A model generated the notes under the pieces. That model ran no database searches and was not told the DNA's origin. It worked only from the letters and a program-made list of their open reading frames with translations. Made by a program: the position numbers and the translations under genes. 34,203 bases of DNA from Chthoniobacterales bacterium (GTDB lineage Bacteria; Verrucomicrobiota; Verrucomicrobiia; Chthoniobacterales; UBA10450): contig JACDHZ010000008.1 in assembly GCA_013820755.1 (NCBI GenBank), positions 1 through 34,203 on the forward strand, written 5' to 3'. Below are positions 15,783 through 23,950 of this stretch, piece after piece (position 1 is the stretch's first letter; each line of letters begins with the position of its first letter).

Positions 15783-16631
15783 ATGGGGAAAGCGGGGCCA
15801 AACTACATCTGGAGAAAAGCGGCGAACGCGCAGTGGTTGTCGGCGAATGAGACACCGCTGCACGAACAAACCGCTGGGTTATATGCGGTTATCGACCGCC
15901 CCGAACGACAGCGGGTTGTCGTTGAGGCCTTTTGCAAGACGCGGCGTGTGGCAGAGAGGCTGCAGCAGGTCTTCGGCGGTTCGAGTTCCCACCTCGCGCG
16001 CGACTGGAAAACGCGCGTATTCGTTGCCACGAAAACCAAGCCCCTCCGCATCGGCAGGCGGCTGACGGTCGTTTCGGAGGAGCGCGACATAGCCACCAAC
16101 CGGACGGCGGCGGTGTTGATAATCCCGGCAGGCGCTGCATTCGGCACTGGCGAGCACGCAACGACGGCGATGTCGCTCCGGATGCTCGAGCGAGTTACGC
16201 GCTCTTTAGTCCCGGGTTGGCGGATGCTCGACGCCGGAACCGGATCCGGCATTCTGGCGTTGGCAGGCCGCTGCTTCGGCGCCAGCGAAGTGGTGGCGAT
16301 CGACAACGACCGGCTCGCTATTTCCACTGCGAAGGAAAACGCACGGCGGAACGGCATCCGCCGCGTCCAATTCCGTATCGCGGACGTGACGAAGCCGCAA
16401 CCGAGCAGCTTCGATATCGTCACCGCGAATCTCTATTCCGAGTTGCTGATCCGGACGTTGCCCGCGTGGCTTCAAAACCTCCGGCCGCGTGCACGCCTGA
16501 TTCTTTCGGGAGTGATGCGCGCGCAGGAATCAGATGTCCTCCGGGGGCTGCGGAAAAACGGCTATGTCACACGGGAGACGCGCCGGCGCGGTAAGTGGAT
16601 CGCTCTCCTTTGCAGCCAAAAACGAGGTTGA
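15783..16631 (+). CDS. prmA: Ribosomal protein L11 methyltransferase (PrmA-like)
   Basis: SAM-dependent methyltransferase; the family trimethylates lysines and the N-terminus of ribosomal protein L11. 282 residues, family-typical. The substrate-recognition N-terminal domain (1-95) is poorly conserved. The linker and SAM fold show IIPAGAAFGTGEHATT (about 113-128), motif I LDAGTGSGILALAG (149-162), the acidic VVAIDNDRLAIS and the catalytic-loop equivalent VTANLYSELL, which replaces the usual IxANIL. It begins 50 bases from the start of the divergent hydrolase. Two hairpins follow the stop, the second with a T-run, so it may be its own transcript. L11 as substrate is by homology only. Confidence 0.88.
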   Translation: MGKAGPNYIWRKAANAQWLSANETPLHEQTAGLYAVIDRPERQRVVVEAFCKTRRVAERLQQVFGGSSSHLARDWKTRVFVATKTKPLRIGRRLTVVSEERDIATNRTAAVLIIPAGAAFGTGEHATTAMSLRMLERVTRSLVPGWRMLDAGTGSGILALAGRCFGASEVVAIDNDRLAISTAKENARRNGIRRVQFRIADVTKPQPSSFDIVTANLYSELLIRTLPAWLQNLRPRARLILSGVMRAQESDVLRGLRKNGYVTRETRRRGKWIALLCSQKRG

Positions 16632-16729: not shown

Positions 16730-17806
16730 ATGCAGGCCGAAGAACTCTCCTACGTCATCCTGACGCCCTACTCGATGCGCAAATCGCGCACAGGCGGCAT
16801 CATCTCACGGCTGATCTCGCGGACGGGGCTGGATCTCGTCAGCGCGCGGATGTTCGCACCGAGCCGGGAGCTTGTGCAGCGCTACGCAGACACCATCGTC
16901 ACCGAATCCGACCCAAGACATAAAGCGACGCAGGAATTGCTCCGGGATTACGTTCGCAGGAACTTCACCGGCACCGTGGATGGTCAGCGACCGCGCGTGA
17001 TGCTGCTGGTCTTTCGCGGGCCTGAGGCTGTGCGTAGAATTCTCGACACCGCGGGGCATATCGTTAACGAGCGCACCAGCGGCGAGACGATTCGCGACAC
17101 ATTCGGGGACTACATCACGATCAGCTCCCGGGAGGTCACGTACTTCGAGCCGGCCGTGCTCACGGCGATCAACGCCGATGAAGTCCGCGAAGATTTGCGG
17201 CTTTGGGCCGAGTTCTCCGAGATCGACGGCGGGATTCTCGACAAGGTCCTCAGCTATCCATCAGGTGCGAACGTCGAAAAGACGCTGGTCCTGATCAAGC
17301 CGGACAATTTCAAGTTCCCCAATGTGCGTCCGGGCGGCGTGATCGACGTGTTCTCACGCACGGGCCTTTCGATAATCGGGTTCAAAGTGCACCGGATGAG
17401 CGTGGCACAGGCCGAGGAGTTTTACGGCCCAGTGCTTTCAGTATTGGAAGACAAGCTTGGCGCTGAGAAAGGCAGGAGCGCGTGGGAAGATATCGTCGAA
17501 TTCATGTCCGGAGGACGACCGACCGCTACGTCGGGAGAGCAACGAAACGCGCCCGGCTCAGAGAAATGCATCGCGATCGTCTACCAAGGCGTCGACGCGG
17601 TACGGAAGATTCGGGAAGTGCTCGGCCCGACCGATCCAAGCAAGGCGCCCCCAGGTTCCATTCGGAAGGAGTTCGGCCAATCGATCATGGTCAACGCCGC
17701 GCACGCCTCCGATTCGGCGGAAAACGCGAAGCGCGAGATGGGGATCATTCGCGTGGACGAGAATAACTTCAAACCTTTGATTGAAAGCTTCTACCGGAGC
17801 CAATAG
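16730..17806 (+). CDS. ndk: Tandem nucleoside-diphosphate kinase, N-terminal domain degenerate
   Basis: NDK transfers the gamma-phosphate of NTPs to NDPs via a phosphohistidine. At 358 residues this is over twice the usual ~140. The C-terminal domain (about 182-345) has the family's KTLVLIKPD (nucleotide-binding Lys190), GFKVHRMS, FYGPV (Tyr232), VEFMSGG, VRKIREVLGPTDP (Arg292), IRKEFGQS (Arg312) and NAAHASDS with catalytic His325; the usual Gly after His is Ala, and about 20 extra residues precede VEFM. The N-terminal domain (about 5-140) has the same layout (LSYVILTPYS, VSARMFAPS, LVFRGPEAVRRI, IRDTFGDY) but KPD is TPY and NxxHGSD is replaced by TISSREVTYFE, so it should be inactive. Starts 98 bases after prmA. 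Confidence 0.85.
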   Translation: MQAEELSYVILTPYSMRKSRTGGIISRLISRTGLDLVSARMFAPSRELVQRYADTIVTESDPRHKATQELLRDYVRRNFTGTVDGQRPRVMLLVFRGPEAVRRILDTAGHIVNERTSGETIRDTFGDYITISSREVTYFEPAVLTAINADEVREDLRLWAEFSEIDGGILDKVLSYPSGANVEKTLVLIKPDNFKFPNVRPGGVIDVFSRTGLSIIGFKVHRMSVAQAEEFYGPVLSVLEDKLGAEKGRSAWEDIVEFMSGGRPTATSGEQRNAPGSEKCIAIVYQGVDAVRKIREVLGPTDPSKAPPGSIRKEFGQSIMVNAAHASDSAENAKREMGIIRVDENNFKPLIESFYRSQ

Positions 17807-17850: not shown

Positions 17851-19014
17851 ATGGAAATTTCCGAGCGCGCCGCACAGTTAACTCCGTCTCTTACGCTTTC
17901 AATCGACAGCAAGGCGAAGGCGATGAAAGCCGAAGGTTTAGACGTGTGCGGTTTCGGTGCGGGTGAGCCTGATTTCGACACGCCAGAGCACATTAAGGAT
18001 GCCGCCATCGCTGCGCTGCAGGGCGGCTTTACGAAGTATACACCGAGCGCCGGTCTGCCGGAACTGCGGCAGGCGATTGCGGACAAGCTGCAGGCTGACA
18101 ACGATCTCACCTACAAGCCCGGGCAGATTGTGGTGAGCAGCGGTGCGAAGCACTCGTGCTACAACGCGATTCTCGCGACCTGTCAGGACGGTGACGAAGT
18201 AGTAATCCCGTCGCCGTACTGGGTGAGTTATCCCGACATGGTTCGCCTTGCGGGTGCGGAGCCGGTTGTTGTCCAGACGACCGAGCGGAATGCCTGGAAA
18301 ATGCGCGCGGAAGACTTCGAAAAGGCCATGACACCGCGCACCAAGATGTTGATTCTGAACAGCCCGAACAACCCGAGCGGCGCCGTCTATACGCGCGACG
18401 AACTGGCGGCCATTATCGAGGTAGCCGCTGCGGAGGACATCTACATTCTTTCCGACGAGATCTATGAAAAGCTGGTCTACGACGGCGTGCAGCACACAAG
18501 CGTCGCGTCGATTTCGAAGGAAGCATACGATCTCACGATCACCGTCAACGGCTTCAGCAAAGCCTACGCAATGACCGGATGGCGGCTCGGTTACCTTGCT
18601 GCGCCGGAAGCGATCGCGAAGGCGGTTGATTCAATCCAAAGCCACAGCACGTCACATCCAGTCTCGTTTGCGCAGCGCGGTGCGATCGCCGCGTTGAAAG
18701 GCGACCAACAACCGCTCGCCGATATGCGCGATGAGTTCGCGATGCGCCGGAACTACATGTATGACCGGATCACAAAGATCCCGAACATCACGGCGGTTCG
18801 GCCGGACGGTGCTTTCTACGTTCTCGTCAACATCAGCCAACTTGGCCTGAGCTCGCAGAATTTCGCCGATCGTCTGCTCAGCAAGGCGAATGTGGCTGTG
18901 ATCCCTGGCGCCGCTTTCGGCGATGATCGAACTGTTCGTCTCAGCTACGCGACGAGCATCGACATCATAAAGAAGGGCATGGACCGGTTCCAGGACTTCT
19001 GCCGTACGCTCTAG
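17851..19014 (+). CDS. PLP-dependent aspartate aminotransferase (class I, subgroup Ib type)
   Basis: Fold-type I aminotransferase, probably interconverting aspartate and oxaloacetate with 2-oxoglutarate/glutamate. 387 residues from the ATG at 17851; an in-frame TTG at 17821 would add ten residues without family support. Motifs: FGAGEPDFDTPEHIK (substrate entry), KYTPSAGLPELRQAIA, SPYWVSYPDM (ring-stacking Tyr region), LNSPNNPSGAVY (cofactor Asn), ILSDEIYEKLVYDG (Asp and Tyr to PLP), NGFSKAYAMTGWRLGY with the Schiff-base Lys237 and phosphate-binding Arg, and a C-terminal VRLSYA carrying the carboxylate-binding Arg. The gap from ndk is 44 bases with no terminator, so co-transcription is possible. 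Prephenate or other dicarboxylic substrates cannot be excluded. Confidence 0.92.
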   Translation: MEISERAAQLTPSLTLSIDSKAKAMKAEGLDVCGFGAGEPDFDTPEHIKDAAIAALQGGFTKYTPSAGLPELRQAIADKLQADNDLTYKPGQIVVSSGAKHSCYNAILATCQDGDEVVIPSPYWVSYPDMVRLAGAEPVVVQTTERNAWKMRAEDFEKAMTPRTKMLILNSPNNPSGAVYTRDELAAIIEVAAAEDIYILSDEIYEKLVYDGVQHTSVASISKEAYDLTITVNGFSKAYAMTGWRLGYLAAPEAIAKAVDSIQSHSTSHPVSFAQRGAIAALKGDQQPLADMRDEFAMRRNYMYDRITKIPNITAVRPDGAFYVLVNISQLGLSSQNFADRLLSKANVAVIPGAAFGDDRTVRLSYATSIDIIKKGMDRFQDFCRTL

Positions 19015-22627: not shown

Positions 22628-23950
22628 ATGGCTGCCACGCCTGAGCTTCAACACACCGTCGGAAAAACAGCCAGCCTGAGTGGCATGTCGCTGCACACAG
22701 GGGAAAAAGTTACGCTGTGCGTACAGCCCGCGCCAGTGGACCACGGCATCAAGTTCAAGCGCAAGGACCTCCAGGACGAGCCGACAATCGACGCGAAAAT
22801 CGAGAACCTGAAGACCGTCGAGCGCGCGACAACGATCGGCGAAGGCTCAATGCGCGTGCACACTGTGGAGCACGTGCTCTCGGCCCTCTCCGCCATGGGC
22901 GTCGACAACGCGATCGTTGAGATGGACGCAAACGAGCCCCCTATCGGCGATGGAAGCGCCTCGCCGTACGTCGAGTTGATCAGTAAAGCCAGCGTCATTC
23001 CGCAAGAGAAGGCGCGGCAGATTTTCGACGTACGGGAGCCAATTTCCATCGAAACGAAAAGCGGCTCACTTCTCGTGGTGCTGCCGGACGACAAGTTCCG
23101 CATCTCCTGCACGCAAGTGGGACCCGAGGGACGCTTCTCTCAATTCTATTCGACCGAGGTTACCCCGGCTGTGTTCGAGCGGGAGCTCGCACCCGCGCGG
23201 ACGTTCGTCTTTTACGAAGATGTGCAGCCGCTGATGGAGAAGAATCTCATCAAAGGCGGAAGCCTCGAAAACGCGATCGTCGTGCGCGGTGACGCTGTGT
23301 TGAGCAAGGAGCCGCTACGGTTTCCGGACGAATTCGTTCGTCACAAGATACTCGATATCATTGGCGATCTTTCGCTGTTCGGTCATCGAATCCGCGGCCA
23401 TGTCGTCGCCGTCAAGCCGGGCCATCACTCAAACGCGGAGCTCGCGCGCGCATTGGTGCGCGAGCGTACAAAGACGATGCCGACGCTGCAGCCGCGCGCG
23501 TTTCCGCCCGGCGAAGGCGGTCTCGACATCCGTCAGGTAATGGACATCCTGCCGCATCGATACCCGTTTCTGATGGTCGATCGAATTGTTGGTTTTGAAG
23601 GCGACACGAAGATCTCTGGGGTAAAATCGGTAACGATCAACGAGCCGTACTTCGGCGGCCACTTTCCCGGTCATCCGGTTATGCCCGGCGTTCTGCAGGT
23701 CGAGGCGATGGCGCAGGTCGCAAGTATCCTGATGATGAAGATCACGAAGAGCGCCAGCCGCATCGGATACTTCATCAGCGCGGATGCCGTAAAATTCCGC
23801 AAGCCTGTGTTTCCAGGCGACACTCTGTTCATACACGCGGAGCTAACGAAAGCGCGCAGCAACCGGCTCGCGAAGGCGAAGTGCCATTGCAGTGTCAACG
23901 ACAGCGTGGTCTCGGAAGGCGAGCTAATGTTCACTTTCCTCGATAAATGA
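22628..23950 (+). CDS. lpxC/fabZ: Bifunctional LpxC deacetylase / FabZ dehydratase fusion
   Basis: The LpxC half removes the acetyl group from UDP-3-O-acyl-GlcNAc, the committed step of lipid A; the FabZ half dehydrates 3-hydroxyacyl-ACP in fatty-acid synthesis. 440 residues. LpxC (1-about 285): LSGMSLHTGEKVTLCVQPA, zinc ligand His82 in HTVEHVLSALSAMG, then HKILDIIGDLSLFG (His239, Asp243) and VKPGHHSNAELAR (His266). FabZ (about 298-440): IRQVMDILPHRYPFLMVDRI and YFGGHFPGHPVMPGVLQVEA with catalytic His345 and Glu359. This fusion is typical of Bacteroidota, Chlorobi and PVC bacteria. The stop overlaps the lpxA start by four bases. No lpxD is visible upstream in the window. Confidence 0.97.
   Translation: MAATPELQHTVGKTASLSGMSLHTGEKVTLCVQPAPVDHGIKFKRKDLQDEPTIDAKIENLKTVERATTIGEGSMRVHTVEHVLSALSAMGVDNAIVEMDANEPPIGDGSASPYVELISKASVIPQEKARQIFDVREPISIETKSGSLLVVLPDDKFRISCTQVGPEGRFSQFYSTEVTPAVFERELAPARTFVFYEDVQPLMEKNLIKGGSLENAIVVRGDAVLSKEPLRFPDEFVRHKILDIIGDLSLFGHRIRGHVVAVKPGHHSNAELARALVRERTKTMPTLQPRAFPPGEGGLDIRQVMDILPHRYPFLMVDRIVGFEGDTKISGVKSVTINEPYFGGHFPGHPVMPGVLQVEAMAQVASILMMKITKSASRIGYFISADAVKFRKPVFPGDTLFIHAELTKARSNRLAKAKCHCSVNDSVVSEGELMFTFLDK

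Follow-up and report, generated by a model that had tools for sequence, protein, structure and literature searches.

A tandem nucleoside diphosphate kinase of the Verrucomicrobiota whose N-terminal domain lacks the catalytic residues and is probably a covalent pseudo-subunit

The window analysed here is a stretch of 34,203 nucleotides from a Chthoniobacterales bacterium (assembly GCA_013820755.1, contig JACDHZ010000008.1). A gene within it encodes two nucleoside diphosphate kinase (NDK) domains in one chain, and lies between a methyltransferase gene and an aminotransferase gene on the same strand. The features of the locus are as follows.

15783..16631, + strand: upstream neighbour, a PrmA-like L11 methyltransferase (Pfam PrmA, 164.4 bits)
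16730..17806, + strand: tandem NDK gene, 358 aa plus stop (Pfam NDK, 123.1 bits)
16736..17227, + strand: N-terminal pseudo-NDK domain, residues 3-166, without catalytic Lys and His (Pfam, hhalign, model, residue counts)
17228..17269, + strand: linker, residues 167-180, the gap between the modelled domains
17270..17767, + strand: C-terminal NDK domain, residues 181-346, catalytic residues present (Pfam, 99.8 bits; residue counts)
17297..17299, + strand: codon of Lys190 of the KPD motif (164/164 proteins)
17702..17704, + strand: codon of His325, the expected phosphohistidine (163/164 proteins)
17768..17803, + strand: C-terminal helix, residues 347-358 (model)
17851..19014, + strand: directly downstream, a class I/II aminotransferase of the aspartate type (Pfam Aminotran_1_2, 267.9 bits)

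Against the Pfam NDK cut-off of 27 bits the whole protein scores 123.1 and the C-terminal half alone 99.8; residues 1-157 alone score 29.1, just over the cut-off, with a match that spans residues 7-128. In profile-profile comparison (hhalign, global mode) the N-domain profile matches single-domain NDKs with a probability of 98.6 (E 7e-15) and, at a probability of 98.8 (E 6.7e-16), the C domains to which the N domains are fused. Because of these scores and profile matches both halves are regarded as NDK relatives, well beyond chance, in agreement with the first-pass annotation, in which a silent kinase-like domain is joined to one that looks active. The fusion is not a frameshift artefact; among the matches listed, uninterrupted frames of ~350-450 aa are usual. 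Elsewhere in the window (22628-23950, + strand) a 440-aa frame resembles what, from its motifs, is presumably an LpxC-FabZ fusion.

Residues were counted in 164 distinct tandem proteins (130 clusters at 90% identity), i.e. 166 rows minus a second copy of the window's protein and minus L119, a chimeric frame running into the next gene that was also omitted from the structure alignment; the eroded protein L214 of genome G261 was handled separately. As had been claimed, the catalytic residues persist in the C domain: K190, Y232, R295, T301, R312 and N322 are each found in 164/164 proteins and H325 in 163/164. The single exception, L197 (G249), has NAAQSSDS, with Gln in place of the catalytic His and the adjacent motifs intact. 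In NDKs this set comprises the KPD Lys, the Tyr, the Arg and Thr phosphate contacts, the Asn and the catalytic His. By its score, catalytic residue set and fold the C domain is an NDK (PF00334). Its NAAHASDS sequence, earlier viewed as a departure from NxxHGSD, is ordinary in this phylum, where 32 of 35 single-domain NDKs with a pattern-detected motif (39 searched) have HASD, and HASD is thus ruled out as a mark of altered catalysis. Nor does the supposed insert of ~20 residues before VEFM stand as described, since a hand count against E. coli NDK puts 11 additional residues between FY and VEFM, with another 16 following VEFM.

The N domain retains the NDK layout without the lysine and histidine. 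Where NDKs have the KPD lysine, 164/164 proteins carry T, N or S, and opposite the histidine 164/164 carry L, F, I, V or M, although an extra hairpin makes the alignment there (residues 127-144) uncertain. The domain is therefore a pseudo-NDK, i.e. above the Pfam cut-off yet with the catalytic Lys or His in 0/164. Eight other positions are invariant (K18, G22, R27, G97, G109, R122, E140 and P141, each 164/164), and R122 stands opposite C-domain R312 in the alignment. Since these invariants seem to exceed the needs of a mere scaffold, they suggest a further N-domain role in most lineages. Together with the R122-R312 alignment they also speak for the main rival to the interpretation reached below, in which the N domain would act as a regulator in most lineages, the old active-site side having become a putative effector site (K18, R20, R122, E140-P141) at which a nucleotide or other effector tunes the C domain. 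The remaining NDK phosphate-contact positions are unconserved in the N domain, which weighs against such a regulator.

An AlphaFold2 model built with 91 sequences (pLDDT 93.5, pTM 0.92) places a confidently predicted NDK fold in the N-terminal part of a two-domain NDK body, as the first-pass annotation would have it. In the model the first N-domain strand begins at residue 4, and an extra beta-hairpin (residues 127-140) ends at the invariant Glu-Pro, a feature in keeping with the putative effector site. The best PDB matches to the whole body are chains of NME7/FAP67: VIA-align superposes residues 1-346 of the model on 88-377 with Z 26.1 and an rmsd of 3.1 A over 278 aligned residues. Single NDKs superpose on the C domain only (~182-344, VIA-align Z about 18-19). 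The Foldseek matches to NME7/FAP67 are looser (first match E 2.8e-14, TM 0.60, rmsd 7.0; whole-chain NME7 matches TM 0.54-0.62, rmsd about 5-7 A), so that the likeness of the two arrangements stops short of identity. In cilia NME7 has a largely structural part, and the NME7-like body lends itself to the idea that the tandem is a histidine-phosphorylated signalling or scaffold protein, with other kinases supplying the NTPs. The intact catalytic set of the C domain speaks against this idea.

The distribution of the tandem bears on the same question. The genomes sampled are mostly drafts; a single-domain NDK was defined by a best E < 1e-30, and the tallies of NDK matches for the phylum (288 genomes) and the order (147) were made by eye. 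In the window's genome (92% complete) the tandem is the only NDK over the cut-off, a third match scoring 11.6 bits. Within its family an NDK match (E <= 0.001) occurs in 73 of 83 genomes, and a match of single-domain strength in none of the 83 (lowest E 3.1e-28). The tandem can thus be called the sole NDK in the window's family, a description that fails more widely because 14 of the 147 order genomes carry both kinds (31 have single-domain only, 92 tandem-type only and 10 none). Among the 288 Verrucomicrobiota genomes the N-domain profile matches 125, of which 124 are found by the N domain and one, G261, through the C half only, its N domain being eroded; single-domain NDKs are present in 89, and the two sets overlap in a single genome, G078. 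Tandems without a match of single-domain strength are found also in the single-contig genomes G042, G072, G152 and G265, which suggests that suitable organisms for testing exist. No NDK match at E<=1 was obtained in 56 of the 288 genomes, and NDK is perhaps dispensable for that reason, a point that would favour a signalling or scaffold role; the near-exclusive distribution of the tandem and single-domain NDKs is evidence to the contrary, and such a role appears quite improbable. The 20 of these 56 genomes that are listed are >90% complete and belong mostly to families f16 and f23.

Named relatives among the matches listed are Verrucomicrobiota, e.g. Chthoniobacterales, Candidatus Udaeobacter and Chthoniobacter, and the titles of 80 of the 493 loci of a contig scan all fit this phylum. 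Far from being an oddity, the tandem makes up an old family. No C domain of the tandem type was noticed that clearly lacked an N domain, the short frames that were checked lying at contig ends (G333, G377) or being divided over two frames (G358). Viral spread was considered and rejected, there being no relative among 11 pattern matches in viral contigs. The C domain is matched by 61 plasmid records, and the eight inspected comprise six ndk genes of single-domain size, one unannotated record and one from Microbacterium (L240), whose annotated ndk of 2199 bases is far beyond one NDK domain. In families f22, f42, f47 and f55, frames of ~300-400 aa (L272-L277, L279-L281) hold a lone, heavily expanded NDK-like domain with KPE/KPH close to the start, GATNP-like and GSIR-like motifs and an NGIHLSAGP-like end. 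In genomes outside both the tandem and the single-domain sets they are the best NDK match, and they are possibly a further divergent NDK; L276 scores 21.5 bits against Pfam NDK, under the cut-off.

The upstream PrmA-like gene is seldom kept beside the tandem; a gene of its cluster lies there in 3 of the 25 loci that were compared. A class I/II aminotransferase lies downstream on the same strand in 145 of the 149 distinct tandem loci with room for it (23 lacked room), at a median of 24 bases from the frame end to the aligned aminotransferase start, and in 5 of 6 eroded loci (1 lacked room); downstream of single-domain NDKs it was found in 0 of 33 loci (7 lacked room). The window's copy has as its best NCBIfam match aspartate aminotransferase, at 436.9 bits, under the cut-off of 550 for that family. 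Two kinds occur beside the tandem, 124 like this aspartate-type enzyme and 21 resembling PRK09257, a transaminase of aromatic amino acids (527.7 bits vs 377). That one kind can stand in for the other next to the same gene is a hint of a functional link, perhaps through aspartate for nucleotide synthesis.

An indication of what the N domain does comes from lineages that have pared it down. In family f69, which belongs to the window's order (6 sequences read), and in G261 (L214) it is shortened to ~115-125 residues, with GETIRDTYGDY and YFEP unrecognisable and the alphaA-alpha2 hairpin wholly or mostly missing. What both retain is beta1-alpha1-beta2, to which f69 adds beta3-alpha3. In f69 K18 is replaced by Arg, R20 by Trp and R27 by Gly, and R89, G97 and G109 are kept; in G261 K18 is likewise Arg and R20 is lost. 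R122 is gone from both. A single NDK match (E <= 0.001) was obtained from each of ten f69 genomes, the frames being 295-383 aa long (six were read), and G436 of this family has a single-domain NDK. Because f69 and G261 nest in separate parts of the tandem clade, the tree implies at least two origins of erosion, the pairing of L175 with L214 in that tree being less sure on account of long branches. A model of an f69 protein again gives a two-domain body (pTM 0.91), which superposes on NME7 6u42_5O over both domains (Z 23.3, rmsd 2.7, 244 aligned), and in it the eroded N domain is predicted to dock in the same place as the full one. It is the domain core, rather than the pocket, that outlasts erosion, and the lasting task of the N domain appears to be structural.

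Three further observations belong with this series. Intermediate N domains in family f5 (L263-L265, L270), in which the alphaA-alpha2 region is shortened and RDT(Y/F)G and YFEP are kept, look as if they were at an early stage of the f69 erosion. In the window's own family, L267 (G361) has an in-frame loss of ~residues 52-83 of the N domain that may be real or an assembly fault. Finally, 162 of 163 full tandems have Tyr at position 285 of the C domain, where Phe is found in the two eroded lineages as well as in L175, another protein with a degraded N domain; among 44 near-invariant C-domain positions Y285 is the only one that changes in both eroded lineages. A rough reckoning gives about 0.3 such positions by chance, so this co-variation is only a lead to a possible contact between the N and C domains and is not significant by itself.

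Erosion also weighs upon the regulatory reading, since f69 and G261 have lost R20, R122 and the Glu-Pro motif of the putative effector site (f69 also R27, with Arg for K18 in both), and the eroded f69 genomes show no other NDK match. Of the two roles that the first-pass annotation had offered for the silent domain, replacement of a subunit is accordingly favoured by the repeated loss of the N pocket with the core kept; regulation stays in contention as the main rival, and is somewhat unlikely.

A quickly built, midpoint-rooted tree of 125 domains places all N domains in one clade (SH-aLRT 100) and all C domains in another (95), the latter nearer to single-domain NDKs, a topology that fits best with one old fusion or duplication behind the tandem. 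Both domains are under purifying selection; dN/dS in 10 pairs is 0.05-0.23 for the N domain and 0.03-0.15 for the C domain, figures that are rough because dS is often above 0.9. Mean identity to the window's protein is 58.0% for the N domain and 68.6% for the C domain, the N value being the lower in 164 of 165 comparisons. Such lower identity, and erosion in two lineages, are what a neutral relic of duplication might display, but the low N-domain dN/dS, its invariant residues and the retention of the core even where the domain is eroded already make that explanation very improbable.

It thus seems probable that the tandem is the housekeeping NDK of its host, as the intact C-domain catalytic set and the near-exclusive distribution relative to single-domain NDKs suggest, and that its N domain is chiefly structural. 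Because two lineages have eroded this domain and kept its core, and the modelled eroded form docks alike, the dead domain most likely serves the active C domain as a pseudo-subunit joined to it covalently. On the basis of its intact site the C domain would run the ping-pong reaction via phospho-His325. The N domain, as a catalytically dead NDK with a mainly structural job, would pack on it as a covalently attached second subunit, i.e. as one half of an NDK pair with one active site. The chain might stay a monomer or assemble further into a pseudo-tetramer or pseudo-hexamer. The NDP kinase activity, the oligomer and the partner role of the N domain are thus predictions from sequence and models. 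A broader version joins this structural role to sensing: in a whole section of the phylum a self-contained one-chain pseudo-dimer would run the NTP pool without the tetramer or hexamer considered necessary, and in most lineages its N site would sense a ligand through the invariant basic and Glu-Pro residues, perhaps tying NTP supply to aspartate metabolism via the adjoining aminotransferase. This combination is unlikely. The pseudo-subunit interpretation suggests that a broken twin can serve an enzyme as a permanent structural partner. Many lineages lock one dead and one live NDK together covalently, two have trimmed the dead one to its core, and the eroded lineages amount to a natural experiment on what a second NDK subunit is for.

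Known NDKs provide several points of comparison. Normal NDKs had been described as hexamers in the first-pass annotation; excerpts of the review PMC7554756 instead give prokaryotic NDKs as hexamers or tetramers, with a few dimers, all built on one dimer, and state that every functional NDPK so far described is an oligomer that derives from a single type of dimer. The same review also numbers the interface residues of the M. tuberculosis enzyme. A different mode of assembly for the tandem chain is plausible. According to excerpts of a newer review, PMC13256974, the view that all are oligomers is under debate because of human mitochondrial NME6, which is reported to be active only with its partner RCC1L. 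The tandem C domain shares with single-domain bacterial NDKs (PF00334) the fold, the catalytic residues and, within the phylum, the HASD motif; it differs in its fusion to a dead NDK domain, in the 11 + 16 extra residues around VEFM, in usually adjoining an aminotransferase gene and in forming a separate clade. No account of a tandem NDK from bacteria was among the papers that searches of the open literature listed. Some Chlamydiota also have two NDK units, ndk1 and ndk2, in one probable operon, but these are separate proteins with kinase motifs conserved in both, according to excerpts of PMC13318545. Like the tandem, as proposed here, NME6 is an NDK outside the usual oligomer that is activated by another protein (PMC13256974, in part); unlike RCC1L, which is a separate partner, that of the tandem would be a dead NDK domain of the same chain.

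The closest likeness is to eukaryotic, ciliary NME7/FAP67, which also has two NDK domains per chain, one of them inactive, in a similar modelled relative placement. NME7 differs in having an N-terminal DM10 domain, which a Pfam scan did not find in the tandem. In NME7 the first NDK domain is competent and the inactive second is still needed for target binding, according to excerpts of PMC13256974, whereas in the tandem it is the first that lacks the Lys and His. A common origin was rejected on the basis of one alignment (8g2z), a profile match rather than a tree, in which both NME7 domains match the tandem C-domain profile, so that the NME7 duplication looks independent of that of the tandem. 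The tandem thus looks like an independent bacterial parallel to NME7, convergent in plan and with the positions of the active and inactive domains swapped.
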